A stretch of DNA of 50,625 bases from a virus: positions 1-50,625 of IMG/VR virus record IMGVR_UViG_3300001918_000035; one strand, given 5' to 3'. Shown here one piece after another: positions 13,439-47,111 of the stretch (position 1 is its first letter; every line of letters starts with the position of its first letter). The notes below the pieces were generated by a model. That model had not been told where the DNA came from and searched no databases. It saw only the letters and a program-made list of their open reading frames with translations. A program made the position numbers and the translations under genes.

Positions 13439-13463
13439 GTTCGTTCCTCAGATGAAGTGCGGG

Positions 13464-14420
13464 TCAGGCGGCCAGCTCGGCCTCGGCCAGCGACACCGCG
13501 GTCATCCACGGCATCTCGGGCTTCTCCGCCTGGATCGCCTTCGCGCGACCATGGATCTTGAGCGCCTTCGGATCGGCGCTGTGCCCGGGCGGCATGGCGA
13601 AGCTGACCGCCGTCTTGGCGCCGGCGCCGGCACCCTTGTCGGCAGGCGCCGCCTCGCCGAGCGACACGAGCGGCTGGGCGCCCGACAGGAGCGCGCGGAA
13701 CTCGTCGGCCGGCGACTTTTCGCCCTCCTCCCCGAAGGAGACCGGCGCGAGCGGCGCCAGCACGTCCAGGATGCCGATCACCTTGGCCTTTGCGGCCGGA
13801 GCCAGCTTGGCCTGGCCGACCAAACCTTCGACGAAGGAGACGTTCGCGGCATGGAAAGCGGCGCGCGCATCGGCGGCGGCTTTCGCTTCGCGCGCTGCGA
13901 TCTCCGCCTCGCGCGCGTCGAGTTCCGCTTCGCGCTCGGCGAAGCTGGCGTTCTTGTCGGTCACCTGGGTCTCCTCGTTTTCGAAAGTGGCGAGGGGCGC
14001 GCTGTCGCTCGCCTCGCTGAAATGGACGGTGCCCAGCCCCTTCACCGCCGGCGCCGCGCCGCCCAGAAAGCCGATGTGCTTCAGGTACCAGGCGCCGGGC
14101 TTCGGGTTCGCGGGATGATCGGGCGGATAGAAGCTGGATGAGATCTTCGGATAGCGGCCGGCATTGACCGCCTCGGCGAAGGCAGGCTCGATCTTGTCGG
14201 CATCGGCGACCAGGCGGTCGCCCTCGACCTTCAGCCCCGCCGCCCAGCCATAGGCGGGGGCGTCGAGCTGCGGATGGCCGACCACCAGCGGCGCCGGATC
14301 GCTCGCAGCATCATAGGACGCGGCGATCGCCGCCAGGTCCGACGCGCCGAAGCTGACCTGCGTGCCCTCCACGGACGTGAAGGTGCCGGTGCGCATGATG
14401 GTGATGGGCTTGCGATCCAT
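13464..14420 (-). CDS. Mu I-like prohead protease / scaffold (318 aa)
   Basis: The start at 14420 (MDRKPITIMRTGTFTSVEG) fits the Mu gpI family, which normally begins a few residues before the phrase RTGTFTS. The frame remains open 25 codons upstream, with another ATG at 14447 just behind a terminator-like hairpin. Conserved features are APLVVGHPQLDAPAYGWAAG (around 45-65), YPKISSSFYPP and AWYLKHIGFLGGAAPAVKG, the protease core. A charged coiled coil at about 160-200 and an Ala-rich C-terminus would be the scaffold part, released after self-cleavage. It is the first gene of the leftward structural operon. Its usual upstream partners (portal, MuF) are in the other arm of the prophage. Confidence 0.88.
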   Translation of the reverse strand: MDRKPITIMRTGTFTSVEGTQVSFGASDLAAIAASYDAASDPAPLVVGHPQLDAPAYGWAAGLKVEGDRLVADADKIEPAFAEAVNAGRYPKISSSFYPPDHPANPKPGAWYLKHIGFLGGAAPAVKGLGTVHFSEASDSAPLATFENEETQVTDKNASFAEREAELDAREAEIAAREAKAAADARAAFHAANVSFVEGLVGQAKLAPAAKAKVIGILDVLAPLAPVSFGEEGEKSPADEFRALLSGAQPLVSLGEAAPADKGAGAGAKTAVSFAMPPGHSADPKALKIHGRAKAIQAEKPEMPWMTAVSLAEAELAA

Positions 14421-14447
14421 GCCCGCCTGAGTGCGGGCTGCGCGCAT

Positions 14448-14473
14448 TGAAAAATGCTTCTGCGAACAGAAGC
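14448..14473 (-). terminator. Rho-independent terminator with UUCG loop just before the structural operon
   Basis: On the minus strand a perfect 7-bp stem GCTTCTG/CAGAAGC with a TTCG tetraloop is followed by ATTTTTC. It points leftward and ends right where the protease reading frame begins, so it would stop transcripts entering the structural operon unless they are antiterminated. On the plus strand no T-run follows. Confidence 0.8.
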
Positions 14474-14480
14474 GGCGCGA

Positions 14481-14660
14481 GGACGGGCCGTCCAATGGCT
14501 CTCGGACCTAAGCCACTAGGGCCGTCCCGCCAAGGCGCTTGTTGGCGAGCTCCCAATCTCAACGATAGCGTACGTCCGACGAATGACGCGAGAGACTCGA
14601 CTCGCGCTTGTCCGATTGCCTAAGCTTACATCTTGCTAGGAACGCTCAGGGGGCACAGGC
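14481..14660. promoter_or_regulatory. Intergenic control region between the two divergent prophage arms
   Basis: This gap separates the leftward protease gene from the rightward accessory module. It contains the near-perfect palindrome GGACGGGCCGTCC (14481-14493) and a repeat of GGGCCGTCC at 14485-14493 and 14519-14527. These are possible operator half sites. I could not pick a convincing -35/-10 pair on either strand. AGGGGG before the ATG at 14661 serves as ribosome binding site. Confidence 0.4.
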
Positions 14661-27343: not shown

Positions 27344-27883
27344 GTGGCGAAGCGGTCCACGATCGACAAGCTGCCGCCGCCGATCCGCGAGGCGGTCGAC
27401 GCCGCGATCAAGCGGGGCGCGACGATCGACGAGATCGTCGAGCAGCTGCACGCGCTCGGCGCCGATCATGTCAGTCGCTCCGCCGTCGGCCGCTACAGCA
27501 AGAACTATCGCGAGCTGGCCGATCAGCAGCGGCAGATCTCGTCGGTCGCCAAGGCGTTCGCGAGCGAGTTCGGAGAGGCGGACAATCTCCAGGGGCGGCT
27601 GATGATCCAGCTGCTCAACACCGTGATCACCCGGGCCATCCTGCCGGTGGCGAGCGGCGACGAGATCGAGCTCGACGGCAAGGAGCTCCACTATCTCGCG
27701 CGCGCCGTGAAGGACGTCGCCTCGGCCGCGAAAACCGACGTCGATCGCGAGGCGAAGATCCGCGAGGAAACGAAGAAGCGCGCCCGGGAGGAGGCCGCTG
27801 CTGCGGCCGAGGCCGCGGGCCGCCGTGGTGGAGCCAGCGAGGAGCTGATCGAACTCGTCAAGCGCGAAATCCTCGGCATCTGA
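27344..27883 (+). CDS. Small terminase subunit, Mu gp27-like (DUF3486, 179 aa)
   Basis: The start (MAKRSTIDKLPPPIREAVDA) is typical of DUF3486. A helix-turn-helix follows (TIDEIVEQLHALGADHVSRS, then AVGRYSKNYRELADQ), then helical oligomerisation parts and a charged C-terminus (REAKIREETKKRAREEAAAA). It recognises phage DNA ends for packaging with the large subunit encoded two genes later. GTG start; no gap to the previous gene. Confidence 0.88.
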   Translation: MAKRSTIDKLPPPIREAVDAAIKRGATIDEIVEQLHALGADHVSRSAVGRYSKNYRELADQQRQISSVAKAFASEFGEADNLQGRLMIQLLNTVITRAILPVASGDEIELDGKELHYLARAVKDVASAAKTDVDREAKIREETKKRAREEAAAAAEAAGRRGGASEELIELVKREILGI

Positions 27884-27884
27884 C

Positions 27885-28265
27885 GTGAGCCGCACCCAGC
27901 GCCTCGTCACCGGCCACGGCACCGCCAAACCATCCGATCTCGCGCAGCTCGCGATCGGCGCCGCTGACATTGCCCGCCGCCTCGGCCTGCAGGTTCGCCG
28001 CACCGGCTGCAGCCACTGTCGCACGTCGGGCTCGCGCTATCTCGAAATCGCCGACAAGTTCGGCCTCGTCTGGCGCTTCCGCATCTCCAACCATCGCCGG
28101 CCGAGCGCCAACCGCAACGCGGCGCCGCACTTCGACCTCGTCTCGATCGACGGCCGTTCGGGCCTGTCGCAGATCGAGTTCTGGCTGGGCGAGATCGCGG
28201 CCGGCCGCATCGCCTGGTTCGAACCCGAAGCCGCGCCGGCGCCGCGCATGCGGAGGCGGCGATGA
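27885..28265 (+). CDS. Unknown protein inserted between terminase subunits (126 aa)
   Basis: GTG start 1 bp after the small terminase; the stop overlaps the large terminase start. The sequence contains the CSHCRTSGSRYLEI pair of cysteines, then RISNHRRPSANRNAAPHFDL and GLSQIEFWLGEIAAGRIAWF. The H-x14 to 20-H arrangement with a CxxC may bind metal. An accessory DNA-binding or nuclease function in packaging is possible by position, but I do not recognise the family. Confidence 0.6.
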   Translation: MSRTQRLVTGHGTAKPSDLAQLAIGAADIARRLGLQVRRTGCSHCRTSGSRYLEIADKFGLVWRFRISNHRRPSANRNAAPHFDLVSIDGRSGLSQIEFWLGEIAAGRIAWFEPEAAPAPRMRRRR

Positions 28266-29836
28266 CGCGGAGCAAGGCGCTTGCATCGACGGCGCTCTCC
28301 ACCCCCACGGACAAAGCTCCGGCCGTCTTGCTTCCATATCAGGCGGAGGCATTCCGCCTAAGTTACGATCACCAACTCCTCTTCATCGAAAAGTCGCGAC
28401 GGACGGGCCTCACCTACGCTTTCGCTCCCAAGGCGGTCCTGGGCGCGGCTGCCGAGAAGCGTCCGAAAAACTTCTACTATGTCGGCTACAAGCTCGACAT
28501 GGCGTCGGAGTTCATCGGCTACTGCGCCCTGTTCGCGAAAATGTTCGACAAGCTTTGCACCATCAGTTCGGAGTTTCTCTTCGACGACGGCTCGGAGGAG
28601 GGGATCAAGGCGCTGAAGATCGACTTTCCTTCGGGCAAGTCAATCGTCGCGCTAAGCTCGCAGCCACGTTCGTTCCGCGGCATGCAGGGCGACTGGCTGA
28701 TCGACGAAGGCGCGTTCCACGACAACCTGCGGGAGGTGCTGAAGGCTGCGATCGCGCTGTTCATGTGGGGCGGCCATGGCGTCGTGATCTCCACCCACGA
28801 CGGCGAGGATAACCAGTTCAACACGGTCATCCAGGAAATCCGCGAAAAGAAGCGCGCCGGTTACGTCCAGCGGATCACGCTGAAGGAAGCGCTCGCGCAG
28901 GGGCTGTACAAGCGCATTTGCCTGGTCACGGGCGAGGACTGGTCGCCCGAGAAGGAAGCGGCCTGGGAGGCAAAGCTCCGCGACACCTATGCCGAAGCGG
29001 CAGAGGAAGAGCTGGACGTCATCCCCTCCGAAGGCTCTGGCTCGTACCTCGCCTACGCGACCATCAAGCGACGCATGACGCCGGACTTCCCGGTCGTCCG
29101 TCTGACCTGCCCGGCCGGTTTCGAACGGCAGGATGAGGCGGATCGCAGAAGTTTCATCCTCGACTGGCTGCGAGTCACGGTCGAGCCGCTCATCGGAGGG
29201 TTCCACGCCGATCGGGACAGCTACTTCGGTCAGGACTTCGCGCGGAGCGGCGACGTCTCGCCGCTCGCCTTCGGGCAACATGACGATGCCAAACGCCTGC
29301 TGGCGCGGTTCATTCTCGAAATGCGCAACGTGCCCTTCTCGGATCAGCAGTTCGTGCTGTTCTGGATCCTCGATCGCCTGCCGAGGTTCGCCGCCGGCAA
29401 GATGGACGCGCGCGGCAACGGCTCCGCTCTGGCGGAGGCGGCGCAGCAGAAATTTGGCTTCGATCGGATCGAGGCCGTCCAGGCGTCCGAAAAAACCTAC
29501 CTGGCCTTCATGCCCAAGCTAAAGTCGGCGATCGACGATGGCCAGCTGATCATGCCCGAAGACGAAGGCACGCTGGACGACCTCCGCCTGATCAAAATGG
29601 TTCGCGGCGTACCGATGATCCGGGGGCGGACTGTCGACAGCAAGGCAGATGGCGCGAAGGGCAAGCGTCACGGCGACAATGCGATCGCGCTGATGCACCT
29701 CGTAGCGGCTGCCGAAACAGCCGCCGGTCCTTTCGAGTTCGAGTCTGCCGGCTCACGCGAGGATGCCGGCGGATGGACGGACGGCTTCGCCGGCTTCGGC
29801 ATCGGCGGTCGCGACAATCTGATGGGGTTCTACTGA
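28262..29836 (+). CDS. Large terminase subunit, Mu gp28-like (524 aa)
   Basis: This motor and nuclease pumps DNA into the prohead. The Walker A-like segment is EKSRRTGLTY (residues 43-52), the Walker B is GDWLIDEGAFHD (143-154) and the coupling motif may be the VVISTHDGE region (about 175). The RNase H-like nuclease begins around residue 323 with YFGQDFARSGDVS, with the last acid in GDNAIALMHL near 470. Length is normal for the family. In Mu-type phages packaging is headful from the left end of integrated copies. The portal gene follows after 1 bp. Confidence 0.93.
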   Translation: MTRSKALASTALSTPTDKAPAVLLPYQAEAFRLSYDHQLLFIEKSRRTGLTYAFAPKAVLGAAAEKRPKNFYYVGYKLDMASEFIGYCALFAKMFDKLCTISSEFLFDDGSEEGIKALKIDFPSGKSIVALSSQPRSFRGMQGDWLIDEGAFHDNLREVLKAAIALFMWGGHGVVISTHDGEDNQFNTVIQEIREKKRAGYVQRITLKEALAQGLYKRICLVTGEDWSPEKEAAWEAKLRDTYAEAAEEELDVIPSEGSGSYLAYATIKRRMTPDFPVVRLTCPAGFERQDEADRRSFILDWLRVTVEPLIGGFHADRDSYFGQDFARSGDVSPLAFGQHDDAKRLLARFILEMRNVPFSDQQFVLFWILDRLPRFAAGKMDARGNGSALAEAAQQKFGFDRIEAVQASEKTYLAFMPKLKSAIDDGQLIMPEDEGTLDDLRLIKMVRGVPMIRGRTVDSKADGAKGKRHGDNAIALMHLVAAAETAAGPFEFESAGSREDAGGWTDGFAGFGIGGRDNLMGFY

Positions 29837-29837
29837 C

Positions 29838-31811
29838 ATGGCGGAGAAGCTGCCGGCCGAGCTGGCGCAGGAAATCGCGACCACCGCGGACGGGCGGGAC
29901 ATCACTCGGCCCTTCGTGCGCGATCTGGAGGAGCCGAAGGACCCGCGCCTGCTCGGCGCCGTCGACTGGGGCGTCTACGATCGCATCCTGCTCGACGATC
30001 AGGTCAAGTCGACCATGGCGCAGCGGATCTCCGCCGTGGTGTCGCGGGATTGGGACGTCCTGCCGGGCGACGACGAAGATCCCCGCGCCGTCGAGGCCGC
30101 CGATCGCCTGAAGTTGGTGCTCGAGGCGGCGTCGATCGACCGCGTCCAGGAGAAGATGCGCTGGGCGAGCTTCTACGGCTATGCGGTCGCCGAGCTGCTC
30201 TGGTTCGCCCGCGACGGCCGGCTGGATTTCACCCTGCGCGTCCGTCACGCCCGCCGCTTCCGCTTCACGCCGGCAGGTGAGCTGCGCCTGCTGACGATGG
30301 CGGCGCCGCGCGGCGAGCCGCTGCCCGATCGCAAATTCTGGGTCGTCCGCGCCGGCGCCACCGACGATGACGAGTTTTACGGCCGCGGCCTGGCCGAGTG
30401 GCTCTACTGGCCGGTGCTGTTCAAGCGCAACGGCCTGCGCTTCTGGAACAAGTTCCTCGATCGCTTCGCCCTGCCCACCGCGCTCGGCAAATATCGGCCG
30501 GGCGCGCCGCGCGAGGAAATCCAGCGGCTGTTGCAGGCGCTGCAGGCGATCTCGAACGACAGCGGCATCGCCATCCCGGACGGCGCGGCGGTCGAGCTGC
30601 TCCAGGCCGCGAACGCCGGCCCCGAATTCGCCGCCATGCCGCGCTACATGGACGAGGCGATCGCCAAGATCGTGCTTAGCCAGACGATGACGACGGAGGA
30701 CGGCGCCGGCGGCCGCGCCACCGGCCAGATCCATGCCGGCGTGAAGCTGGAGGTCATCAAGGCCGATGCCGATACGGACAGCGACAGCTTCAACGAAGGC
30801 CCGGCGCGGTGGTGGACCGATCTGAACTTCGGCCCCGACGTCGCGAGCCCGCGCTTCGTCCGCATCGTCGAAGAAGAGGCCGACCTGAAGCGCCAGGCGG
30901 AGGTGGACGAGGCGCTGGATCGGCTTGGCTGGGCGCGCAACGACGACAGCTTCCGCGACACCTTTGGCGACGGATACGATCGGAAGCCCGAGCCGCAGGC
31001 GCCGGCCGTCGTTCCGCGCCTTCCCGCCAACGACGACGCTGACCCGGATGACGAGCAGCAGCAGAGCCCGCGCGCCGAGATCAGCTTCGCCGCGAACGAT
31101 CCGGCGCCGCTCTACGTCAAGCGGCGGCTGAAAAACGCCTCCAGGCTCGTTGCATGGGCGAAGAAGGCCGGGTTCAAGTCTACGATCGACCCGGCCGACA
31201 TGCACGTCACGGTGCTCTATTCCCGGCGCCCGGTCGATTGGTTCAAGCTGGCCGACGACTGGGGCGGCGGCGAGCCGCTCGTCATTGGTCCGGCCGGGCC
31301 GCGCCGGATCGTCCGGTTGGGCGACAAGGGCGAGGCTGTTGCCCTGCTTTTCGGCAGCGGGCGGCTCCAGTGGCGGCACGACGACATGATCTCGCAGGGA
31401 GCGAGCCATGACCACGCCGAATATTTGCCGCACGTGACGATCAGCTACGACGCCGGCGACGTCGATCTGGACGCGCTCGAGCCGTATGACGGCCCGCTGA
31501 CCTTCGGGCCCGAAGAGTTCGAGCCGATCCAGGAGGGCTGGCACGAGAATGTCCGGCAGGTCAGCCTCGCTGAGGGCGAAGGCGACATCGTCGATGCGGT
31601 CGCCGCGCAGCTGGTCGAGCAGGGCCTGACGCCGATGAGCCCCCTGCTGATCCCGCTGGTCGAGGCGATCGAGAAGTCCGGCTCGGCCGAGGATCTGGAG
31701 GCGCACCTGCTTGCCGCCGTCGGAGCCGGGAAAGCGGAACAGTTGGCCGATCTGCTGGCGCGCGCCGGCTTCGGCATGCGCTTGGCTGCCGAAGGCGACG
31801 CCGACCGCTGA
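29838..31811 (+). CDS. DUF935 portal protein with an inserted 2H-phosphoesterase (Acb1-like) domain (657 aa)
   Basis: Residues 1-385 match the Mu gp29 portal: DITRPFVRDLEEPKDPRLLG, then VSRDWDVLPGDDEDP, then YGRGLAEWLYWPVLFKRNGL and LSQTMTTEDGAGGRATGQIH. Mu-type portals are about 510 aa; here a linker rich in Pro/Asp/Gln (about 385-420) leads to a 2H-type domain (about 425-570) with two HxT motifs: MHVTVLYS (H456, T458) and LPHVTISY (H532, T534), 76 residues apart. T4 Acb1, which cuts the cyclic nucleotide signals of CBASS, has the same two-motif fold. Residues about 585-657 then resume the helical C-terminal tail typical of DUF935. The insertion therefore lies within the portal. Confidence 0.88.
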   Translation: MAEKLPAELAQEIATTADGRDITRPFVRDLEEPKDPRLLGAVDWGVYDRILLDDQVKSTMAQRISAVVSRDWDVLPGDDEDPRAVEAADRLKLVLEAASIDRVQEKMRWASFYGYAVAELLWFARDGRLDFTLRVRHARRFRFTPAGELRLLTMAAPRGEPLPDRKFWVVRAGATDDDEFYGRGLAEWLYWPVLFKRNGLRFWNKFLDRFALPTALGKYRPGAPREEIQRLLQALQAISNDSGIAIPDGAAVELLQAANAGPEFAAMPRYMDEAIAKIVLSQTMTTEDGAGGRATGQIHAGVKLEVIKADADTDSDSFNEGPARWWTDLNFGPDVASPRFVRIVEEEADLKRQAEVDEALDRLGWARNDDSFRDTFGDGYDRKPEPQAPAVVPRLPANDDADPDDEQQQSPRAEISFAANDPAPLYVKRRLKNASRLVAWAKKAGFKSTIDPADMHVTVLYSRRPVDWFKLADDWGGGEPLVIGPAGPRRIVRLGDKGEAVALLFGSGRLQWRHDDMISQGASHDHAEYLPHVTISYDAGDVDLDALEPYDGPLTFGPEEFEPIQEGWHENVRQVSLAEGEGDIVDAVAAQLVEQGLTPMSPLLIPLVEAIEKSGSAEDLEAHLLAAVGAGKAEQLADLLARAGFGMRLAAEGDADR

Positions 31812-33097
31812 TGACCGATATTCGCGCCTCGATCGGCTTGCCGCCCGACGATACGGTCGAGGCCTTCCGCGCGAAGGGCGTCTATCCGGTCACGCCGAAC
31901 TGGGATGCGGTGTGGCAGGAGGAGAATGCTCGCGCCTTCTACGTCACCAAGCTTCTCGATCGCACGCTCGCCGAGCGCGTCCGCGCCTCGCTCGACGATG
32001 CCATCGCCAAGGGTGGCACGTTCGAGCAGTGGAAAGCAGCGATCGTTCCCCAGCTCCAGGAGGCGGGCTGGTATGGCCGCGTCGAGAACCGGCCCGAGCT
32101 GACCGGCGTCGACTATCCGATCTTCGTCGGCAGAAGCCGCCTGCGGACGATCTACGACACGAACCTGCGGATGGCGCGCGCCGCCGGCAAATGGAAGCGC
32201 ATCCAGGCGCTGAAGCGGGTGGCACCCTATCTGCGCTACACGGCGATCCTCGACACCCGAACCCGGCCGGAACACCGGCTGTGGCACGGCACGATCCTGC
32301 CCGTCGACCATCCCTGGTGGGACACGCATTTTCCGCCATGCGGCTGGCACTGCCGTTGCAACGTCGTCCAGCTCTCCGATCGCGATCTCCGCGCCCGCGG
32401 CTGGAAAGTGACCGCCGAACCGCCCGGCGGCCGTAACCGGCCATGGCGCCGCTCTGACGGCACGATCGTCCAGGTACCGAACGGCATCGACCCGGGCTTC
32501 GCCTACAACCCCGGCAAAGCGCACATGCGCGGCCTGGTACCCCCGCCAGTCGAAGGGCCCCTCGCGACGCCCGCCATCCGACCAGCCGATCTGCCGCCGC
32601 TGCCGGCGCCGCGCGAGAGACGCGAGACCCTTCCGGACGAGCTGAGCGACGAGCAGGCGATCGGACGCTTCCTCGCGCGCTTCCCCGGCCGCCGTGCGGC
32701 CGACGGCACTGTCCTGACACAGGACGCGGCTGGTGAGCCGCTGATCCTCGATGATCGCTTCTTCCGCAGGGGTGAAGGCTCGCCGCGCGAAGGCGCGCTG
32801 AAGCTCCGCGCGGACCGGAAGCGCCTCCTGCTGCAGCTCGCCGAGACGCTCCTCGATCCGGACGAGATCTGGTGGACGTGGCAGTCGATCGAACTGGCCA
32901 ACGGCCGAACCATCCAGCGCGTGGCGCGCCGCTATGTCGCCCGATTCCTGATCGACGGCCAGGACCTGCCGCTCGTCGTCGTGATGCAGACGGATGCCGA
33001 CGGGTGGCGCGGGGTGACGGCCTATGTCGGGAACAATCTCGGCTACGCGGACAAGGAGCAGGTGCGGGGAGGCTGGCTTGCCTACCGCCGCCAATGA
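31811..33097 (+). CDS. MuF head morphogenesis protein with C-terminal PBECR-like nuclease domain (428 aa)
   Basis: Residues about 15-200 match the Mu F/SPP1 gp7 minor head family: PVTPNWDAVWQEENARAFYV, then TIYDTNLRMARAAGKWKRIQ and the signature DTRTRPEHRLWHG with PPCGWHCRCNVVQLS. These proteins enter the prohead and may be ejected with DNA. Residues about 273-428 (LPDELSDEQAIGRFLARFPG, then DPDEIWWTWQSIELANGRTI, then PLVVVMQTDADGWRGVTAYV) resemble the phage Barnase-EndoU-ColicinE5/D-RelE (PBECR) group of toxin-like nucleases often fused to MuF. The start overlaps the portal stop. The nuclease activity is a family inference. Confidence 0.85.
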   Translation: MTDIRASIGLPPDDTVEAFRAKGVYPVTPNWDAVWQEENARAFYVTKLLDRTLAERVRASLDDAIAKGGTFEQWKAAIVPQLQEAGWYGRVENRPELTGVDYPIFVGRSRLRTIYDTNLRMARAAGKWKRIQALKRVAPYLRYTAILDTRTRPEHRLWHGTILPVDHPWWDTHFPPCGWHCRCNVVQLSDRDLRARGWKVTAEPPGGRNRPWRRSDGTIVQVPNGIDPGFAYNPGKAHMRGLVPPPVEGPLATPAIRPADLPPLPAPRERRETLPDELSDEQAIGRFLARFPGRRAADGTVLTQDAAGEPLILDDRFFRRGEGSPREGALKLRADRKRLLLQLAETLLDPDEIWWTWQSIELANGRTIQRVARRYVARFLIDGQDLPLVVVMQTDADGWRGVTAYVGNNLGYADKEQVRGGWLAYRRQ

Positions 33098-33252: not shown

Positions 33253-33573
33253 ATGGGTAAGCTATCACCAACAGCAGAGGATCGCGCCGTCTCGGTGGCG
33301 GAGGGCGTGCTGGATGCGCCGGGTGCGTCGCGGCCGGTCCGGGTGAACGGGCGCACCAATGTCTCCGTTTCCGGGGTGTTCACCGGCACGCTCCAGCTAG
33401 AGCGCAGCTTCGACGGCGGCGACACCTGGATCGCGATCACCGCCGCGGGCGCGCCGATCGAGTTCACTGGCCCCTTCTCGGAAGAAATAGAGGAAGCGGA
33501 AGCCGGCATGCTATACCGCTTGAACGCGGTTGCATTGAGCGCTGGCGCAGCGAACTGGCGCTTCAGCCGATGA
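33253..33573 (+). CDS. Small beta-sandwich virion protein (106 aa)
   Basis: I choose the ATG at 33253 because GGGAGGGGAGG lies right before it; another ATG at 33238 would put this site inside the gene. The protein ([19 protein letters not shown], then [20 protein letters not shown], ending [19 protein letters not shown]) reads as an Ig-like or BNR-like sandwich common next to phage fibre genes. It is coupled to the large fibre gene by an ATGA overlap, so it may be an adaptor or decoration partner of the fibre. Confidence 0.65.
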
Positions 33574-36500
33574 TCCGCAGCGTCCTAAAGGGCGCCGGAC
33601 GCGGAGGCAGCGGCGATCTGCGCCTGACGCCGCCCGTCATCCCCCAGGACGCCGAGGGCGATGTGTCGCGCCTGCGATCAAACCTGCGCGGCGCGCTTAC
33701 GTTCACGAAGCTCTCGGGCGCCTCCGTGATCGCTATCGCCGCGAACGGAGACGTCTCGCTATCGGCGGCTCTCGGCGAAGGCGGCACCGCCGTTTTTCGC
33801 GCCCGCGCCCAGAACACCAGCGGCGATGCGATTGAGCGCGAGCTCACCCTCCGCGCCGCCGGCCCGGGGCCTGCGCCAGCGCCGGCGCCCAGCGACACGA
33901 TGCCGGATCCTTTCGCATTTCAGGGGATCGACGACGCCGAGCCGGAGACGCTGTACACCTCGAACGCTGTGACCCCGACCGGCTTCGATTCGCCGGCGCC
34001 GATCAGCATCGGCGGCAGCCATGCCGACCAATATCAGATTAACGATAGCGCGTGGACCGCCGCACCGGGCACCTTCCCACCCGGAGCGAGCGTCCGGGCT
34101 CGGCTGACGACGTCCGCGAGCTACGAAGCAACGGCGCGCGCTGCGGTGACGATCGGCGGGGTGACGGCGTACTTCGACGTCACGACCCGCGCTGCGCCCG
34201 CCCCGACGCCCAGCCCGACTCCGAGCCCAACGCCCACGCCGACGCCCACTCCCACCCCGGCCTTCAGCCCGGCGGACCTGTTCGCCAGCGGCGAGTTGGG
34301 CGCATTCGCCGATTTCGGCCGCGCCGAGACATTGTTCGCCGACACCGCTCGCACCCAGCCGGCCGGCGCTGGAGGCGCGATCGCTGGCGTCACCGACCTA
34401 AGCGGTCGCGGCAATCACTTCACCAGCGGGTCGGTCAACAGCCGGCCCGCGATCGCCGATCTGGGCGGCGTCCCCTGCGCGTTCTTCGAGGGGCAGGGCT
34501 GGTCAGGCAGTCCTAACGAGCCGGACCATCTCCGCACGCCCAATCTCACTATCCCTCAGCCCTGCACGATGCTCGTGATTGCTCGTCCGGCAGTCCGACA
34601 GACGTCCGTGATCGTCGCCGGGAACAACTCGGTCTGGGAACCCGGGATCGCGATTGAGCAGCAGGGCGCCAGCCCGGCTTATGAACGCTTCCGCATCCGC
34701 GCCGGATCGGTGCTGGCCCCGGTTGCCAACGCGTCGCTCTGGGACGGATGGAGCGTGCTCCTGGCCGAGTTCAACGGCACGTCCAGCACTCTCTGGCTGA
34801 ACGGGGTGCAGCATGTCACCGGCAACGCGGGTGCCGCAGGCTTCGCGAACCTGGCTTGGCGGCTCGGCGGCTCGAACTTCGGCAGCGGCTTCAACGGCCA
34901 CATTGCCGCCGCTCTGCTGATCGGTCGACAGCTCACGCCGGCCGAGCGCGCGGATCTCACTGCCTGGGCCAACGGCCGGATCGTCCCGGGCGGCTCGCCG
35001 TCGCCCAGCCCGTCACCCAGCCCAACGCCAACCCCATCTCCGACGCCCAGTCCGTCTCCGACGCCCAGCCCATCGCCAACGCCGAGCCCGTCGCCATCCC
35101 CCAGCCCGACGCCGAGCCCGACCGGGACGATCGTCCAGCCCGCCGCGAGCTACGTCGGTCAGAACACCGCGCCGATCGCGATCAACAATGCCGCGCACAC
35201 CCCGGAATATTACGCTCTCTGGTCGGGCTTTGGCGGCAAGGCCGCGTACGACGCGATCCAGCCCGATCTGACGCCGCCACCGGACGGCGATCCGGTCACC
35301 AGAAACGGCGAGCCCACTTTCACCTGGAACATTGACCAGGACGATTTCGAGATCGAGGCGCAGGATTTCGCGCTCGACATGACCTGCCTCGCGCCAGGCC
35401 TGGGGCCGATCGATGGCAGAACAGACCGCATCGATCTCTACCTGGAGAACGCTCAGCCGACTTCGCTTGATGGCCACAGCTATCAGTGGATCACCAGCGA
35501 CAAGGCGCATGGCGGCTATCCGGCGATCCGCGCGGTCCTGCGCTTCGATCGGAACGGAAAGCACGCGCTGAAGGCGATTTTCCGCTGTCAGGGCGGGATC
35601 GAGGCGATGCGTGAGGCGGTGCTGTGGGTGAACATCCCGTCGCTGCCGAACTATATCAATCGGCACGAGCGGAGCCTCTATGTCGATCCTGTCAACGGCC
35701 AGGACCGCATCGACGACGGTGCCGATCGCGGCGGGCCGACCAAACCGTTCCGGACCGAAGAGTTCGCGCTCGGCTTGATGCGTGGGACCGGCGTCGCCTT
35801 CAATGGCAGCAACTGGCTGCATGCGACGCACGAGGGCGGCTACATCTACATGCTGCCAGGCCTCCATCTGTTCGATGGCGTCGCGCAGGCGAATGCGGGC
35901 GACAATCCGAACTGGGCCAACACCCAGCTTCCCGTGCGGATGCGGCCTGCTCCCGGGGTGGCAAAGAGCGAGGTGATTGTCACCCGCTCCGAGCAGTACT
36001 TCGAGATGTCGTCGGCCTCCGCCGACGACGGGCATTGCCTTTTGCGGATCGCCGGGTCGATGAGCGGCACGACGATGACCGTCACCCTGCTCGACGATCA
36101 GGGAAGCGGCGTCCGCGTGCACGACGGCATGCTCATCCACTATCGGCGAGCCGACGGTTCGAACACACGCGCCAACACCCGCGTCGTGCGCCAGATCCTG
36201 CCGCTGCAGGCAGGCGAGGCGATCGGCGGCGTCGGCCGCTACACCGTCGGGAACATCCCGGAGCCGACCGGGCCAATAAGCCTATGGGCTTTCTCGATCC
36301 CGAACATCGTGCACCGCAAGATCCGCTTCGCGGACTGTCTGGTCGACGGTCATCGGTGGCATCGCATCGCTGGCAGCTCGCTGATGTTCTCGGTCCATTT
36401 CATACGCTGCAGCTGGAGAAAGGACTTCGACATACGCGGACCGGAAAGCCCGGTACGACCCGGAGCGCCGATGTTCCCGCGCGACACCAGCAGTTTTGGC

Positions 36501-37991
36501 AATGTCATCGTGCAAGCCGCGGACGCGCGGGTCGCATTCTTCGACTGCGATGGCGACATCAACAGCCTGGGCGGCGCCGAGACCCTGATCAACTGCGGCT
36601 TCAACGCCTCTTGGGACGCTCTCTACAATGGCCGCACCGCCGCCGCGACGGCCACGCACCTGAACCTGATGAACGTCCAGATCAATCAGGTGCCGAAACA
36701 CAAGTGCCGCCTGCATCATGCGCCGGAGATTGAGGTCGTCAGCACGGAGTTCCTGCCGGCCGGCTCGCAGGCAATCGGCGGCGAAGCGGCCGTGGACACG
36801 GTGCGCCTCCATTTCAGCGGCAACGACTATGCGACGCCCGAGGCTGACATTTGCGTCACGGTGCTCAACGGCGACCGCACCCACATCGACTATTTCTCCG
36901 GCGTTTCCGACTGCGTGGTCCAGAACGGCCGGCTGATGAGCGTACGTCTTCGCCGCCGCCTTGATCAGGACCTCGTCGATCTCGAGAACAGCAATGGCGG
37001 TCAGCCCGTCAAGGTCATGATCTCGAAGGTGAAGCACGCGGACAGCGCGATCCAAACCTTCGAGAATGCGCCGCTCACCAACGTCGGCATGATCGGCTTT
37101 TCGGCGACGACCGACCTCGGCGGGCAGATGATGCTGCTGACCACGAACACCGTGCAAAGCTTCAACGCCTCTACCGGGCAGCCGGGCAGCGGCACGAACA
37201 GCTTCCAGGCAACGGTGGCGGCGGATGGCCGGACACTGACGCTGGTCAATGCGCCTGGGCTGCGGTTGCGCCATGGCTGGTTGGTCGGCCGGTCGGCCGC
37301 GGAGCGAGCGTTTATCGTTCCCGGCGGGACTGCGGACAACGTTGTCGGCACCGCTTGGCGCCTCTCGGAGCCGCTGACGCCGGGCACCTTTTCGGGGTGG
37401 CAGTTCATCACCTGCTTCTCTCGCGCGGCGCTCGTGAACACGGTGATGCAGCGCCGGCCGATGGGCACCAACTCGACCTGGGGCACCAACGCCGGTCAGA
37501 ACCTGGCCAGTTGGACCTCGCAGATCGCGAACCGGGGCGTGCGCGATGTCGGCTTGATGTTCGCCACCTTGCTCGGCCGCCATCAGATCGGCCACCATTC
37601 TCTGGGATTGTGGCTCCTGACCGACACCTTCATGAAATTCGAGCGGTTCCGGATCGATGCCTCGATTTTGGACGATATCAGCACCGGCGGCGCTCGCCCG
37701 CTGACCGCCGCCGAGCTACGCGGCGAGCGCGTGCGTCTGCTGTCGCAGGGAGGGCCGCTGCCGAGCAGCAGCGGCTCACCGGTCCCGCCAGGCCTGGTGG
37801 CTCCGGTGCTCGGCGATCTCGATTATGCGTCGATCAGTCCAGCAGCGTTTCGAATGCCGGCGGAATATTCGACGCTCGGCCCCTGGTGCACGCAAGCAGA
37901 TGTCGACTTCATGCCGTTCGACCTGTTCGGCAATCCGCGCCGAGTGGGAGACCCCGTCGGCGCGGTCGCCAGGCTTCAGGGTCAGGCGTAA
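33570..37991 (+). CDS. Giant tail fibre/spike-like protein with LamG and beta-helix domains (1473 aa)
   Basis: There is no signal peptide. Residues 1-205 are beta-rich, with Ig-like repeats. A first Pro/Thr/Ser linker lies at about 208-230. Residues about 230-470 form a concanavalin A/LamG jelly roll ([20 protein letters not shown], then [15 protein letters not shown], then [20 protein letters not shown]), a motif common in phage fibres. A second linker (about 474-520) is built of SP/TP dipeptides. The remaining 950 residues look like a right-handed beta-helix ([17 protein letters not shown], then VHFIRCSW), ending [17 protein letters not shown]. Most likely a host-surface binding or degrading spike. 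It is coupled to the small upstream gene and ends in a 10-bp tail-to-tail overlap with the PEP-CTERM gene. Confidence 0.7.
34195..34263 (+). repeat. Short tandem repeat coding a (TP/SP)n linker
   Basis: Imperfect 6-base units (pattern of CCNACG and CCGAGC) encode [17 protein letters not shown]-type sequence. Slippage would change linker length in steps of two residues without breaking the frame. Confidence 0.7.
34990..35128 (+). repeat. Longer tandem repeat coding a second (SP/TP)n linker
   Basis: About 22 imperfect 6-base units encode alternating Ser-Pro and Thr-Pro between the LamG-like and beta-helix domains. Such a stretch is prone to in-frame expansion and contraction. Confidence 0.7.
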
Positions 37992-38578: not shown

Positions 38579-39022
38579 ATCAAACCCCTTTGTCAGTGGA
38601 GAAAAGAGCCTCAGTCATGTGGTTAAGCGGCGCAAGTGGTGATCGTGCGAGCGCGCCGAATTGGGACGGCTAGCCCCGATCGGCCGATAGCGCCCAGAAT
38701 TAACCAGGTTGGAACCCTGGCTTTGTAGCCGAGCGCTGCAGCCTTCGAGCCCCGCTATCTGCCCGTTTTTCTCTGTTTTCCGCGCCTTCCAGCACAGACG
38801 GACTTGTTTTTTCGAAAGGTGGGAAATCGCTTCGATGCTCAAGCTGAGAATGGCTGTTTTCCGCGCTTTGCAAGGGCGGTGCAGCGCGAAGGTGGGAATC
38901 AATCGGCCAAAAAATCGATTCGAGCTCGCGGCGGTCAGAAAACGGCGGTTTTCGGCCCCTTTTGTCCCGCTTCGGGCCCCGTAAATCCCGCCTCTTTCTC
39001 TCGATGATTTATTGGCCAGTCA
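38579..39022 (+). mobile_element. Predicted right end of the transposable prophage
   Basis: This region codes for no protein. Three related motifs are present: CTGTTTTCCGCGCCTTCC at 38773, CTGTTTTCCGCGCTTTG at 38854 and CGGTTTTCGGCCCCTTTTG at 38946, spaced 81 and 92 bp, compatible with transposase-binding sites at a phage end. The end itself is probably the CA at 39021-39022 (or 39023-39024), because the GTA DUF2793 frame loses its family resemblance at this point. The left end and the 5-bp target duplication are outside the window, so the exact base is not proven. Confidence 0.55.
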
Positions 39023-39428
39023 CAACCGCCGGCTGGCGCGCGCCGACCACTTGCTGCCCGTCGATCCGGACCGTCGAGAAGCGCCCTTCCCCGGCCCGCC
39101 AGGCGCCGGCGACGTGGCAGACGAACAATTGCTGGTCGACGGCCCAGACCAGCATGCCCTCGCGCGGGCGGAGGAAGCGCCAGCCGCCGTCCGTCCAGCC
39201 GGCGAGCGCGCCGGCCGCGTCCGCCCAGAGGCCGGTCGGCGCGTCGCCGACCAGCCAGCACTGGCCGATCGCCGGGTCGGCCGGCGGCGCGTTCACGCCC
39301 GCCGCCTCGACCGCCGCGCACAGGCCGAGGTCGATCAGCACGAGCGCCTCATTATGGGTGAGATCCTTCTGCGCCTGGGCTGCCTCCAGAAAAGGGAGGC
39401 CGTGGCGCGCGGTCGCGACATCGGTCAT
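39009..39428 (-). pseudogene. GTA tail-fibre-type DUF2793 gene, 3' end replaced by the prophage
   Basis: The protein (139 aa) matches DUF2793: RHGLPFLEAAQAQKDLTHNE, then NAPPADPAIGQCWLVGDAPT, then AGALAGWTDGGWRFLRPREG and VRIDGQQVVGARQPAV. Family members go on with a Pro/Gly segment and a helical end resembling EARAAI..LLAALRxHGLI. Here the last five codons (VTGQ and stop) appear to be prophage DNA. About 30 C-terminal residues are missing. It is the last gene in view of the GTA cluster, coupled by ATGA to the g15-like gene. It may still yield a partly working protein. The lost end should lie beyond the left prophage end. Confidence 0.75.
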
Positions 39429-41587
39429 AGAGTCTCCATCAGCGGCACGATGAGGTGGGTGGGCAGCGACGCCGCATGGGTGCCCAGCTGCCGGAGCGAG
39501 ACGCGCGCCTCGGCAGCGAGCAGCCGGTCCGCCGCGACGGCCGCGGCGTCATAGTGGAAGCGGGGCGCCATGGTCTCGACCGTGCGGACCGCGTCGCCGA
39601 GCGCGATCTCCAGCGCATAGGCTTCGCGCTCTTCGGCAAGCGGCACATCGCCGCCGTCCGGCCAGCGCCAGCCGCTGCGGCTGCAGCGGACCCAGCCGAG
39701 ATCGAAGCCGCCATCGGCGCGGCGGGCGGCGCGGAAATGCACCGGCGGCAGCGGCCGCAGCGCGGCCCCGATCGCGGCCGCCGCGGCCGGGACCGGCGCC
39801 GGATCGCCCGGCCCCGCCGCCAGCAGCTGCACGGTCGCGCTGAAGGCCGCGACCGGCGGATCATGGGCGATGAGCGCGTCGGGATCGATCAGGACGAAGC
39901 GTTCGCCCAGCTGGTGGCGAGCCGCGGCAGCGGCCGTGCCCCGCCGGCCGCGCAGCAGCTCCGCCAGCCGCCAGCGGCTGCCGCCCAGCGGCTCGGCCCG
40001 GCCGAACTGGACCAGCTCGTCGCCGAGCAAAGCGAGATTGGCCCCCGCCTGCAAGCGATGCGCGTCGGCATCGGCAAGCAGCATCCCGTCGTGCAGCAGA
40101 TCGACCGTCACCTGATGGCGTCGGTCGGCGATCGCCGCGCCCGCCGGCGGCAGCACCGATGCCGCGACGCCGATCACGGCCGGCGGCGCCGTCCGGCCGA
40201 TCGGCTCCCAGCTGGTGCCGGCATCGCGGCTCGCCAGCAGGCTCGCGCGGCGCCACCCCGGCAGCGGCCCGGCCGCGGCGATCCACAGGCGCGGCGTCGC
40301 CGGCGGCGCGTCGCCGAGCGGCGGCAGGTCGATCAGATGGACGATCGTGGGCCCATGGGGAAGATCGGGGGCCGCCAGCGCCCGTCCCGCCGCCGCCGTG
40401 ATCGGCACCCGCGGCCCGGCGTCGATCCGTTCGAGCTCCAGGCGGACGCCGTCGCGATCGATCGTCTTCCCGATAAGGCGCCAGCGCCCGCCGTCCGCGG
40501 CGAGGGCGAGATCGGCGCCGACCGGCAGCGCCATCAGCCGCCAGCCGCCGCGGACGGCGCGCAGCCGCCGCCCGCCTTCGGCGCGGCGGAGCGCGTCCGC
40601 CGCCACGCTTTTCGCCTGCGCGGCGGTCAGCGCCGCGGGCAGCGCGAAGCGGATCGGCGGCCCGGATCTGCCCGCCTGCCGCGCCCGCTGGAGCCCGGCC
40701 AGATAGTCACGGGCCGGATCGAAATAGGCGAGCTCCGCTTCGACAGGCGCCGCATCGCCGTCCAGCTCCTCTTCCTCCCAGGCGATCGCGTCGCCGGCGA
40801 TCTCCGTCACCGGCGGGTCGGCGGCGGGCCAGGCCAGCCGGCAGCCGCGCTCGACGGCGGGGCCGCGGGTCAGCGGCGCCAGCGTCTCGATCAGATCGGC
40901 GAGGCCGGCATCGCTGGCTGCATAGCCGTGCACCGCCTCGCCCGCATCGGGCGGCACCACGGCGTCGCCGGCCAGATCGGCCAGGATCGCGCCGATCGCG
41001 ACCGGACCGGCATCGGCCTCGATCTCGAAGGTCAGCGCCGGGATGCGGTTGCCGAACGGTTCGAGCGCCAGATTCTCGAACACGGCATAGGCGCCGCCGC
41101 GATAGGCGGGCGCCAGCCCCTCGGCGGCCGCGATCAGCGGATCGGGCGCCTGGTCTTCGCTGCCGAGATGCAGCCGGAAGGCGGTCTCGCTTTTCCAGTC
41201 GCCGGCGGCGCCGCGGAGCAGATTGCCGTCGGCCCAGATGCGGTGGACGGCGCGCAGCGGACGCGCCGACAGGAGGACTGCGAACGACGCCGAATAGCTG
41301 TAGCTGACCGTCGCCGGCCGGCCCTTGCCGCCGCCGGTCCGCGACCGGCTCTCGATCAGGTCGGTCGCCCAGATCACGCTGCCGGCGACGCGCATCCGGC
41401 CGTACAGCCGGGGGATCGGCGCGCCATAGGTCGAGCTCTGCACCCGCAGATCCTGGAGGCGCGGCCCTTCGCGCGCCTTGGGCGGGAACAGGCGCTGGTC
41501 GATCGCCTGGCCCACCAATGTCCCGATCGCCCCGCCGACGCGGGCGCCGATCAGCGTGCCGACGGCACCAAGGAGCAGAGTCGCCAT
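39425..41587 (-). CDS. GTA g15-like tail hub/fibre protein (720 aa)
   Basis: The N-terminus is a glycine-rich hydrophobic stretch (MATLLLGAVGTLIGARVGGA) followed by AIDQRLFPP, as in RcGTA g15. The early part has YGAPIPRLYGRMRVAGSVIW and PATVSYSYSASFAVLLSARP, hallmarks of the family. It forms the tip or spike of the GTA tail. At 720 aa it is much shorter than the approximately 1300-aa RcGTA protein; I see no GTA TIM-barrel segment between the hub region (about 130-350) and the tail part. I chose the ATG at 41587; a TTG six codons upstream is less likely. It overlaps the g14-like gene end by 37 bp. Confidence 0.88.
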   Translation of the reverse strand: MATLLLGAVGTLIGARVGGAIGTLVGQAIDQRLFPPKAREGPRLQDLRVQSSTYGAPIPRLYGRMRVAGSVIWATDLIESRSRTGGGKGRPATVSYSYSASFAVLLSARPLRAVHRIWADGNLLRGAAGDWKSETAFRLHLGSEDQAPDPLIAAAEGLAPAYRGGAYAVFENLALEPFGNRIPALTFEIEADAGPVAIGAILADLAGDAVVPPDAGEAVHGYAASDAGLADLIETLAPLTRGPAVERGCRLAWPAADPPVTEIAGDAIAWEEEELDGDAAPVEAELAYFDPARDYLAGLQRARQAGRSGPPIRFALPAALTAAQAKSVAADALRRAEGGRRLRAVRGGWRLMALPVGADLALAADGGRWRLIGKTIDRDGVRLELERIDAGPRVPITAAAGRALAAPDLPHGPTIVHLIDLPPLGDAPPATPRLWIAAAGPLPGWRRASLLASRDAGTSWEPIGRTAPPAVIGVAASVLPPAGAAIADRRHQVTVDLLHDGMLLADADAHRLQAGANLALLGDELVQFGRAEPLGGSRWRLAELLRGRRGTAAAAARHQLGERFVLIDPDALIAHDPPVAAFSATVQLLAAGPGDPAPVPAAAAAIGAALRPLPPVHFRAARRADGGFDLGWVRCSRSGWRWPDGGDVPLAEEREAYALEIALGDAVRTVETMAPRFHYDAAAVAADRLLAAEARVSLRQLGTHAASLPTHLIVPLMETL

Positions 41588-41946
41588 GTTCCGATGATCT
41601 CCCAATCCGGCGCGCCGGGCCGTTCGACGACGCGGCCCAGGCCGGCGTCCGCATGGATCAGGCCGCCGTCACTCAGAATGCCGAGGTGAAGCTGGCCCGG
41701 CCCCGGCCGCATCAGCAGCACGTCGCCCGGCCGCCGCTCCGCCGCCGCCGGGACGAAGCCCGCCGCCTCCAGCGCCGCCGCGATCCGGCGCGGATCGCCG
41801 CCGCGCAGCGCATAGCCGGTCGGGGCCGGCGCCTCAGCCGCCCAGGCGACCAGCCCGATACAGTCGAGACCCGTGGCGGGGTCCCGCCCGTGAAGGCGGA
41901 AGCGGGCGCCGATCAGGGCGCGGGCGCGGGCGGCAAGGTCGCTCAT
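41551..41946 (-). CDS. GTA g14-like NlpC/P60 peptidase (131 aa)
   Basis: A cell-wall peptidase of the GTA tail. The catalytic cysteine is C29 in TGLDCIGLV and the histidine H87 in GQLHLGIL, with a polar residue following in the AGLGRVVE region. Start ATG at 41946 (MSDLAARARALIGARFRLHG) overlaps the g13-like stop. RcGTA g14 is similar in length. It probably opens peptidoglycan of the recipient cell during DNA delivery. Confidence 0.9.
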   Translation of the reverse strand: MSDLAARARALIGARFRLHGRDPATGLDCIGLVAWAAEAPAPTGYALRGGDPRRIAAALEAAGFVPAAAERRPGDVLLMRPGPGQLHLGILSDGGLIHADAGLGRVVERPGAPDWEIIGTWRLCSLVPSAR

Positions 41947-42755
41947 TCGCCGGGATAGCGCGTCAGGAGGTCGGTGCCGGGCAGATGCGGCTCGCCGCGG
42001 AAATTCTCCCAATTGCCGAAGCGGTCGCGGCAGGTCGCGAAGCTCTTGTCGCAGCCCTCGATGATCTCCGCGCGGTCGCCCGGGGCGAGCGGAAAGCGCG
42101 GCGCCGCCGCCAGCGTGACAGTCGCGCCGGCGCTGGCGAGGATCGCCTCGGCCAGCCCGCCATTGTCGCCGTCCAGCCAGCGCAGCCGGCCCCAGCCCCA
42201 GGCGTTCGGCGCGGGCTCGGCCCGGTCGAGCATGACCTCCGCCCCGGCCGCGGCGACGACGCGCACCAGCCGCCGGCGGCCGGCGAGATCGACTCGGCAG
42301 CGCCGGTCGCCCAGCTCGGCGCGGCATTCGGGCGACGTCACTTCGGTGATCCGCTCGGCAAGCCGGCTCTCGACGCCGCGCAGCGCGGCATGGAATTGGC
42401 CGCGGGCGATGCGCACCGGCCCGAGCGTGCCGCGCGCCAGCTCGACGAAGCGGGCGGGATCCGTCCAGTCGACTGCCAGCAGGCGGATCGCCGCACCGTC
42501 CCAGCGGCCGGCCTGCAGGTCGGCAGCGGTGATCGCATCCGCGCTCAGGGCGCCGCTCAGGTCGACCGCGCCGCCCTCGGCCGGCAGGGCGGCTTCGATC
42601 GCGGACGGGACGATGCCGGGCGCCGCGCGGTAAAGAAAGCCGTCGACCAGCAGCGGCCGGTCGTGCGCGGTGAAGCCCATCGCCACCCCGTCGCGCCGTT
42701 CCAGCCGCCAGCAGAGCGCCACCGTCAGGCTGTCGCCGTCGAGAAAGGCCGTCAT
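41943..42755 (-). CDS. GTA g13-like tail hub protein, DUF2163 (270 aa)
   Basis: The protein starts MTAFLDGDSLTVALCWRLER and holds the DUF2163 signature: GFTAHDRPLLVDGFLYRAAP, then the C-terminal cysteine set SPECRAELGDRRCRVDLAGR and IIEGCDKSFATCRDRFGNWE, ending FRGEPHLPGTD. The four cysteines bind an iron-sulfur cluster in RcGTA g13, as I recall. It overlaps the neighbours by ATGA at both ends. Length is close to the family (about 290 aa). Confidence 0.92.
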   Translation of the reverse strand: MTAFLDGDSLTVALCWRLERRDGVAMGFTAHDRPLLVDGFLYRAAPGIVPSAIEAALPAEGGAVDLSGALSADAITAADLQAGRWDGAAIRLLAVDWTDPARFVELARGTLGPVRIARGQFHAALRGVESRLAERITEVTSPECRAELGDRRCRVDLAGRRRLVRVVAAAGAEVMLDRAEPAPNAWGWGRLRWLDGDNGGLAEAILASAGATVTLAAAPRFPLAPGDRAEIIEGCDKSFATCRDRFGNWENFRGEPHLPGTDLLTRYPGE

Positions 42756-45028: not shown

Positions 45029-45033
45029 CGGCG

Positions 45034-45609
45034 TCAGCGCTCGAGCGCGCGGCGGACCGCCCGCGCGATCTGGCGGCCGGAACGTTGCAGCGCCTGCGCC
45101 GGTTCGGTGCCGCCGGGCGCCATGATGGTGATGGCGACGCGCACGTCCCGGCCGCCGCCCGGCCCGGCAGCCGGGTTGGGCAGGATCGATCCGGCCTGGG
45201 CGGGGGCGAACAGCTCGGGCCCGCGCTCGCCGACCAGATAGGCGCGGCCCGGCGCGACCGGCCCGCCGGCGGCGCGACCGGGCGCGCCCCCGGCACCGGC
45301 GAACAGCGCCGCCGGGCCGCGCCAGCCGCCGCCGGTCGCCAGCCCGCCCAGAATGGCCGCCAGCCCGGCCCGGTCGGCGCTCGCCGCGATCTCCGCGAGC
45401 AGCGCGAGCGTCGCCCGCGCCAGCTCCTCCAGCCCCAGCCGGCCGGTGCGCGCGGCGCGCACCAGCACGGTCTCGAGCGTCCGTCCCGCCCGTTCGGCGC
45501 CCTGCGCGAACGGACCGTCCAGCTCCGCCCGCATCGCCGCCACGTCGCGGGCGAAGCCGGCAGTGTCGGCGCGCACCGCGACGACCAGCCGTTCGATTTC
45601 CTCATCCAT
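45034..45609 (-). CDS. GTA g11-like short tape measure protein (191 aa)
   Basis: Starts MDEEIERLVVAVRADTAGFA, the tape measure pattern of GTAs. Helical N-terminal half with an Ala/Leu-rich segment (LELARATLALLAEIAASADR-like), then a Gly/Pro-rich part with GRAYLVGERGPELFAPAQAG, a typical tape measure C-terminal motif. RcGTA g11 is about 220 aa, giving a very short tail. It overlaps the chaperone gene by 8 bases. Compare the 1099-aa tape measure of the prophage. Confidence 0.88.
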   Translation of the reverse strand: MDEEIERLVVAVRADTAGFARDVAAMRAELDGPFAQGAERAGRTLETVLVRAARTGRLGLEELARATLALLAEIAASADRAGLAAILGGLATGGGWRGPAALFAGAGGAPGRAAGGPVAPGRAYLVGERGPELFAPAQAGSILPNPAAGPGGGRDVRVAITIMAPGGTEPAQALQRSGRQIARAVRRALER

Positions 45610-45793
45610 CGGGGAAACTCTCCTGTAGCCGGGCGAGGAGCGCGCCGTCGCCGGCGCCGTCCTCGGGCGGCGCCAATGCGGTCAGCACCGTCGCCAGTTC
45701 CGCCGGGGTCGCGCGCCAGAACTCGTCCGGCCGCCAGCCGAGCACCGCGCCGGCAAGACCGGCGAGGCCGGTCGCGCGGTCGGCGAACCTCAT
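45602..45793 (-). CDS. GTA tail assembly chaperone, g10.1-like (63 aa)
   Basis: Small protein, start ATG at 45793 (MRFADRATGLAGLAGAVLGW), then RPDEFWRATPAELATVLTAL, matching the rcc01693-type chaperone family of GTAs. Start overlaps the g10-like stop (ATGA). Acts before tape measure and tube assembly. Confidence 0.85.
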   Translation of the reverse strand: MRFADRATGLAGLAGAVLGWRPDEFWRATPAELATVLTALAPPEDGAGDGALLARLQESFPDG

Positions 45794-46101
45794 CGGCCTT
45801 GCAGCACCTGCTGGAGCAGCGGCTTGAGCGCGGCGGCACTGGCCGCCAGCCCCGCTGCCGCCACGCCTTCGCCGAACGCTTCGCGGCTCAGCCCGTCCGG
45901 CCGGTCGGCCAGGCAATGCCAGAACAGCGCCACCATCTCCTGGATGGTCAGCCGGCCGCCCGCCGCCCGGTCGACCAGCGCGAAGAGCGGGCCGAGCTCC
46001 TCCTCGGCGGCGACCAGCGCGGCGAAGCTCGGCCGCAAGATGAGCGTCGCGCCCGCCACCTGCAGGCGCGCTTCGCCGCGCGCCGGGTTCGCGCCGCTCA
46101 T
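45790..46101 (-). CDS. GTA g10-like tail assembly protein (103 aa)
   Basis: Begins MSGANPARGEARLQVAGATL and contains LRPSFAALVAAEEELGPLFA and LTIQEMVALFWHCLADRP, the GTA gp10 (tail tube chaperone) pattern. Couples to the tail tube gene upstream and to the smaller chaperone downstream. Equivalent in role to lambda G without a frameshift signal; the two chaperones are separate genes here. Confidence 0.88.
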   Translation of the reverse strand: MSGANPARGEARLQVAGATLILRPSFAALVAAEEELGPLFALVDRAAGGRLTIQEMVALFWHCLADRPDGLSREAFGEGVAAAGLAASAAALKPLLQQVLQGR

Positions 46102-46505: not shown

Positions 46506-46518
46506 CGCACCTGCTCCC

Positions 46519-46911: not shown

Positions 46912-47111
46912 CTCAGCAGCTCTCCGATCCAGCGCAGCCGCGCATCCTCGAACCAGCGGCGCCGGAGGCCACGGCCGCGGAGCCGCACCTCGCCGTCCGC
47001 CGCCTCGGCCGTGACGCCGGGGACGGCGATCGTGCGCGCCAGCCGCGCCGCCAGCGCCGCCGCGCGATCGGCGGCGCGCTGCCCGGCCCGGGCCTGAAGT
47101 CGTTCGAACAT
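46908..47111 (-). CDS. Small GTA head-tail joining protein (67 aa)
   Basis: ATG at 47111 (MFERLQARAGQRAADRAAAL) overlaps the g6-like stop; ends RWFEDARLRWIGELLR. In position between g6-like and g8-like genes it stands where RcGTA has g7. It is shorter than RcGTA g7 (about 110 aa), so it may be a reduced or different connector. Family resemblance is weak. Confidence 0.65.
   Translation of the reverse strand: MFERLQARAGQRAADRAAALAARLARTIAVPGVTAEAADGEVRLRGRGLRRRWFEDARLRWIGELLR

Follow-up and report, generated by a model that had tools for sequence, protein, structure and literature searches.

Phage DNA passes into and out of the head by way of a ring of portal proteins, and Acb1 is a counter-defence nuclease that opens the cyclic oligonucleotides of CBASS. 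Portal proteins fused to Acb1 are already known in portals of the DUF1073 type (PF06381), in which the Acb1 domain is the C-terminus of the protein; examples are the portals of Pam3 (PDB 8hds), phiPSA1, RHEph04, and the Synechococcus phages Ssp-JY39 and Ssp-JY40. The reference Acb1 proteins (PF23474; PDB 7t26 and 7t27) are those of T4, where gp57B is a stand-alone protein of 152 amino acids, and of FBB1. For T4 Acb1, the roles of individual residues have been described: E141 reads the adenine, and W147 is in the lid (PMC9117128). We have found no account so far of how a portal-borne Acb1 works as a soluble counter-defence enzyme, and a literature search found no paper on portal-borne Acb1 or on a Mu-type portal with Acb1, an absence that is weak evidence.

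Processing of head proteins by a head protease is described in other phages. In the Mu virion, the last 124 residues of the portal gp29 are not seen, and the authors attribute the loss to protease I (PMC11915804). The T4 protease cuts after L/I-X-E, a signal comparably short to the motif that we describe below, and it processes internal proteins such as IPI, which are ejected; the T4 scaffold fragments mostly exit via pores or the portal, whereas IPI and Alt remain inside until their ejection (PMC9026906). For Mu, B3 and their relatives, portal processing is reported or likely, and we have found no named site.

Here we analyze a viral DNA of 50,625 nucleotides (IMG/VR record IMGVR_UViG_3300001918_000035), which we call the window, in which a Mu-type portal carries an Acb1 domain that has a copy of a short motif on each side. 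For Mu-type phages this motif suggests a simple and testable answer to how a portal-borne Acb1 works, namely that the head protease frees it. It also supplies, for Mu, B3 and their relatives, a motif at which cleavage is predicted, and it points to the portal tail as a natural slot for cargo.

A Mu-type portal with an inserted domain

The gene (29838..31811, plus strand) is an open reading frame of 657 amino acids. Residues 46-377 (29973..30968) are the Portal_Mu core (PF06074/DUF935, E = 3.7e-93), matched nearly over the full length of the profile (positions 3-335 of 336). By alignment, a linker of variable length rich in P, D and A follows (residues 378-414, 30969..31079), and then a first copy of the motif, ISFA (residues 415-418, 31080..31091), a putative head-protease site. 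The Acb1 domain (PF23474) covers residues 424-570 (31107..31547), with 129 bits against a cut-off of 27 (E = 1.3e-37). A second putative head-protease site, VSLAE (residues 575-579, 31560..31574), comes after it, and the protein ends in a helical tail of 78 residues (31575..31808) homologous to the tail of relatives without Acb1. With these E-values and bit scores, neither the Acb1 match nor the Portal_Mu match is due to chance. The DUF1073 profile PF06381 does not match the window portal, which has the 78-residue tail behind its Acb1 domain, and neither PADLOC nor NCBIfam gives any match to it. A structure model of the full-length portal was set aside (pLDDT 54); the model of the domain alone is good.

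The first-pass annotation, made from the letters alone, had this open reading frame, its coordinates and a pair of HxT motifs (H456/T458 and H532/T534, 76 residues apart) exactly as translation and profile search give them. It had also proposed that a DUF935 portal is interrupted near residue 385 and then resumes a C-terminal tail. The insertion and the tail both stand, the latter being a C-terminal tail of about 80 residues common to Mu-type portals without Acb1, but the position does not: the foreign segment spans residues about 419-579, and residues 378-414 are the linker.

A natural empty site is found in a close relative (L013, with 67% identity across the whole alignment), which reads ...AAASFAEGEGDIVDA, where the window reads ...AEISFA-[ANDPAPLYV...Acb1...VRQVSLA]-EGEGDIVDA. 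The close relatives without Acb1 have a single copy of the motif, and the comparison with the empty site indicates that the insert brings the second one.

The suggested survey of DUF935 portals for the same insertion gives at least 28 distinct Acb1-bearing Mu-type forms in metagenomic phages and prophages, and in all of the 28 distinct cases a tail of 83-101 amino acids stands behind the domain. One relative lies in a Sphingomonas MAG. In DUF1073 portals, on the other hand, Acb1 has 0-6 amino acids behind it. The single exception, L135, is the only DUF1073-type portal with Acb1 away from its end, with 184 residues behind the domain.

A motif shared by the portal and the protease-scaffold

The motif, [V/A]SFA(E), brackets Acb1 in two copies in most of the 28 Mu-type portals. 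In the window it is also found in the Mu I/Z-like head maturation protease and scaffold (13464..14495, minus strand, with a true start probably inside the open reading frame), where it sits at the junction of protease and scaffold and repeats through the scaffold, as NASFAE, PVSFGE, LVSLGE, AVSFAM, AVSLAE and, once, NVSFVE. The scaffold part of the window has 5 occurrences of S[FL][AG], against 0.46 in shuffled sequences (with a maximum of 4 in 1000 shuffles), and that of most Acb1-bearing phages has 4-7, against about 0.3. Over the 28 portals, the density of S[FL]A per 100 amino acids rises from 0.03 in the portal core to 3.15 over the 16 residues that precede Acb1; it is 0 inside Acb1 and 2.64 over the 20 residues that follow. 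These ratios are not independent trials, because the 28 sequences are related.

The motif varies among phages and agrees within a phage. Exact words shared by portal and scaffold are AALSAE in Mu, EFAEGD in B3 and VSLAE in the window. The distance from the motif to the end of the portal is 78-88 residues in Mu, in B3, in the window and in those relatives for which it was counted. A segment defined only by its position, 70-100 residues from the C-terminus of the portal, was compared with the phage's own scaffold and with those of 15 other phages. It resembles its own scaffold more than the others, with none of 20,000 permutations reaching as high a value, whereas for a control segment 30-60 residues from the C-terminus 10,798 of 20,000 permutations do. 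Both the density and the permutation test were designed after the motif had been noticed, and they are not blind. They replaced a best 6-mer statistic, of the flank against its own scaffold relative to shuffled flanks, which had too little power to decide, since a scaffold of 200 amino acids offers a fair match to any flank. The motif class is weaker and hard to see in the six most divergent Mu-type phages (L058, L068, L069, L094, L096 and L108).

The portals and proteases of Mu (gp29, I/Z) and B3 are like those of the window in the core, in the C-terminal tail of about 80 residues, and in a motif common to the tail and the protease-scaffold. They differ in having no Acb1 and one copy of the motif. 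In Mu gp29 the motif is at 427-432, 80 residues from the C-terminus, and a cut there predicts the loss of about 8.9 kDa; the part equivalent to the window tail is missing from the mature Mu portal. From its recurrence in the scaffold, its co-variation with the scaffold, and the loss of the Mu tail, we infer that the motif is a head-protease site.

A proposed excision of Acb1 in the prohead

Portals have their C-terminal side toward the interior of the head. The Acb1 cassette of the window lies just upstream of the portal tail of about 80 residues, between the two putative protease motifs. Once the portal is part of the prohead, with this side inward, Acb1 would thus be freed within the prohead: the head protease would remove the tail, as it apparently does in Mu, and the same step would release residues 419-579. 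Cuts at both copies would result in a body of 46.9 kDa, an Acb1 of 17.9 kDa and a tail of 7.9 kDa. We consider it reasonably probable that the portal is a polyprotein from which the head protease excises, inside the prohead, an Acb1 enzyme of 161 amino acids. Up to 12 molecules per head (a presumed copy number) would be freed at the assembly stage.

Two fates can be proposed for the enzyme. It may degrade cGAMP-like signals in the infected cell, either before the cleavage or after leaking out of the head. More speculatively, it may remain enclosed in the head until it is ejected into the next host. Under either fate Acb1 would be present at a useful place and time: in the producing cell while heads assemble, or in the next cell as the phage enters it. 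A more tentative proposal, which we regard as doubtful though worth stating, is that Mu-type portals in general are polyproteins from which the head protease releases a counter-defence enzyme, that this enzyme is ejected with the DNA, so that the next cell is reached with a ready CBASS-degrading enzyme, and that the duplicated site is a landing site for cargo domains. It resembles what is known of T4 IPI and Alt and of P1 DarA and Hdf, proteins placed in the prohead that act in the host against defence or for take-over; the T4 internal proteins are processed by the head protease, and ejection is reported for the T4 IP proteins and Alt. These proteins differ in being non-homologous, separate internal proteins outside the portal. 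In T4, the acb1 gene (57B) adjoins ipI, the gene of an injected internal protein (L046, 3592-4411).

The flanking motifs argue for an Acb1 that is cut off the portal rather than one that stays part of it. In none of the Acb1-bearing portals does the first copy have the E of the fuller motif (it reads SFAA, SFAL or SFGV), and it may for this reason be cut less well. An active Acb1 that is never excised would act late in infection, in the cytoplasm, as part of a portal that is still unassembled, as it presumably does in DUF1073 phages, and in the virion it would simply be concealed or mobile. Such a portal could indeed be active in the cell as soon as it is synthesised. Moreover, DUF1073 portals hold the same domain at their very C-terminus, and when we looked for a comparable shared motif in those portals and their proteases, none was recognised; excision is therefore no general need of a portal-borne Acb1. 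What this reading leaves unexplained in Mu-type phages is the presence of the motif on both sides of the domain and its co-variation with the protease-scaffold, and we take it to be unlikely.

Slightly less likely still is that the duplicated motif is not a protease site at all, but a peptide that binds scaffold or shell and anchors the portal in the prohead. Co-variation with the scaffold, taken alone, would also follow from binding. The position of the motif at the protease-scaffold junction and its repeats throughout the scaffold, however, are as expected of self-cutting sites, and the Mu virion lacks the tail that follows the motif.

Conservation and identity of the Acb1 domain

Seven of the nine functional residues of T4 Acb1 are kept in the alignment: Y426, H456, T458, H532, T534, E562 and W568 of the window correspond to T4 Y12, H44, T46, H113, T115, E141 and W147. 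Among the ligand contacts Y12, E141 and W147 are kept, W74 is replaced by V, in a row of the alignment that depends on how the loop is aligned, and F107 by H. W74 is not diagnostic, since the DUF1073 group is also without it. Over the 28 distinct Mu-type domains, E141 and the second catalytic histidine (H113) are invariant, and the first (H44) is kept in 26. Conservation of the HxT motifs in relatives, on which the first-pass annotation had staked its reading, is thus complete for the second histidine and partial for the first, which is replaced by Y in L003 and L021 (one phage lineage) and by N in L054, all with open frames and with the other ligand residues kept.

These replacements imply that catalysis is not strictly required. 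In those three copies it may have been lost, and they may be sponges or decaying copies. Extended to the whole group, they would favor a domain that is no longer mainly an enzyme and acts as a sponge for cyclic oligonucleotides or has a structural role in the head. We find this improbable, because the first histidine is kept in 26 of 28 domains including that of the window, and purifying selection holds. The pairwise dN/dS of the Acb1 domain is 0.06-0.31, mostly like that of the portal core and with some pairs near synonymous saturation, values that indicate that the domain is maintained.

The inserted domain is a member of the Acb1 family within the 2H superfamily. The first-pass annotation had called a 2H fold from the two HxT motifs; the Pfam match (E = 1.3e-37) and the structure comparison that it had proposed bear this out and make the assignment more exact. 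A model of the domain built from a 45-sequence alignment (pLDDT 88.4) matches FBB1 Acb1 with cGAMP (7t27) with Z 17.3 and an rmsd of 2.1 A over 136 residues, apo Acb1 with Z 16.3, the BCSR5 phage phosphodiesterase with Z 14.3, and other 2H enzymes with Z 11.5 or less. The window domain is thus like the T4 and FBB1 enzymes in fold, HxT/HxT tetrad, Y12, E141, W147 and domain length; it differs in being a cassette within a structural head protein. The Pam3 portal 8hds, the sequence of which has a homologous Acb1, is absent from the lists of structure matches to the domain, which is a hint, and no proof, that the domain is unmodelled there.

A 2H phosphoesterase with a different substrate (2',3'-cyclic RNA ends, tRNA repair, 2'-5' oligoadenylates) would fit so broad a superfamily, where LigT-like folds also match with Z about 11, but it is very unlikely given that Acb1 is the best match by a wide margin and that E141 and W147, both kept, favor Acb1 chemistry over a generic 2H enzyme. 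The domain probably destroys a bacterial alarm signal of the CBASS type. Such a target is plausible because CD-NTase genes of the CBASS kind are found in two of six genomes, a small sample, from the genus of the host of one relative.

Distribution and probable exchange between portal families

None of 50,697 isolate phage records matches the window portal at 80% query coverage or more; the isolate Mu-type portals among the matches listed align only with roughly its first 400 residues. Used alone as the query, the Acb1 domain finds DUF1073 portals, the best of them 52-53% identical among the matches listed. In the two such portals that were checked PF06381 matches and PF06074 does not, which confirms the statement in the first-pass annotation that DUF1073 portals carry Acb1. 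The portals from Pam3, phiPSA1, RHEph04 and the two Synechococcus phages, like the window, have Acb1 fused to the portal, with 35-53% identity to the window domain. They differ in portal family, in having Acb1 at the extreme C-terminus with no tail, and in that no duplicated protease-like motif was found. In the Synechococcus phage Yong-M3-232 (L004, 158-2144) the annotation gives portal and Acb1 as separate genes that overlap in different frames; in its close relative Ssp-JY40 they are fused, so that either the Yong-M3-232 genes are truly split or the record contains a frameshift.

We classified 110 Acb1-bearing frames from loci mostly of IMG/VR, some of which come from the same contig: DUF1073-type portals account for 62 and Mu-type portals for 42 (28 distinct domains), and 6 are others. 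For one relative, 200 genomes from the family of its host hold 10 clear Mu-type portals, two of them with Acb1. A tree of the Acb1 domains requires at least two label changes for the Mu-type domains, which fall on one side of a branch in 0% of the bootstrap trees, while its strongly supported branches alone are compatible with a single origin. The pattern suggests that the cassette has probably been exchanged between portal families more than once.

Genomic neighbourhood

The window holds a Mu-like transposable phage, with a MuA-like transposase, a MuB-like protein, a gp27-like small terminase, the large terminase, the portal, and then MuF. The I/Z-like head protease-scaffold, the major head protein and the connectors are on the minus strand in the left part of the window. 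Its structural genes are split into a minus-strand block at 1-14495 (protease, major head protein, connectors and tail genes) and a plus-strand block at 27344-33097 (terminase, portal and MuF).

Directly after the portal-Acb1 gene, the MuF minor head protein (31811..33097, plus strand) is fused to a PBECR2 nuclease-like domain (residues 294-426). This second enzyme-bearing head protein beside the first fits a head that carries enzymes, and does not prove it.

An open reading frame of 1473 amino acids (33570-37991, plus strand), which has SPTPTP-type repeats and weakly resembles a tail fibre family, is at the right end of the Mu-like part. Adjoining the Mu-like phage, a second and unrelated head-tail cluster occupies 38935-50625 on the minus strand, as in a gene-transfer-agent or HK97-type element; it has a portal of another type (49531-50625), a head protease, an adaptor, a major tail protein, a tape-measure-like protein and an Rcc01698-like tail protein (39425-41605).
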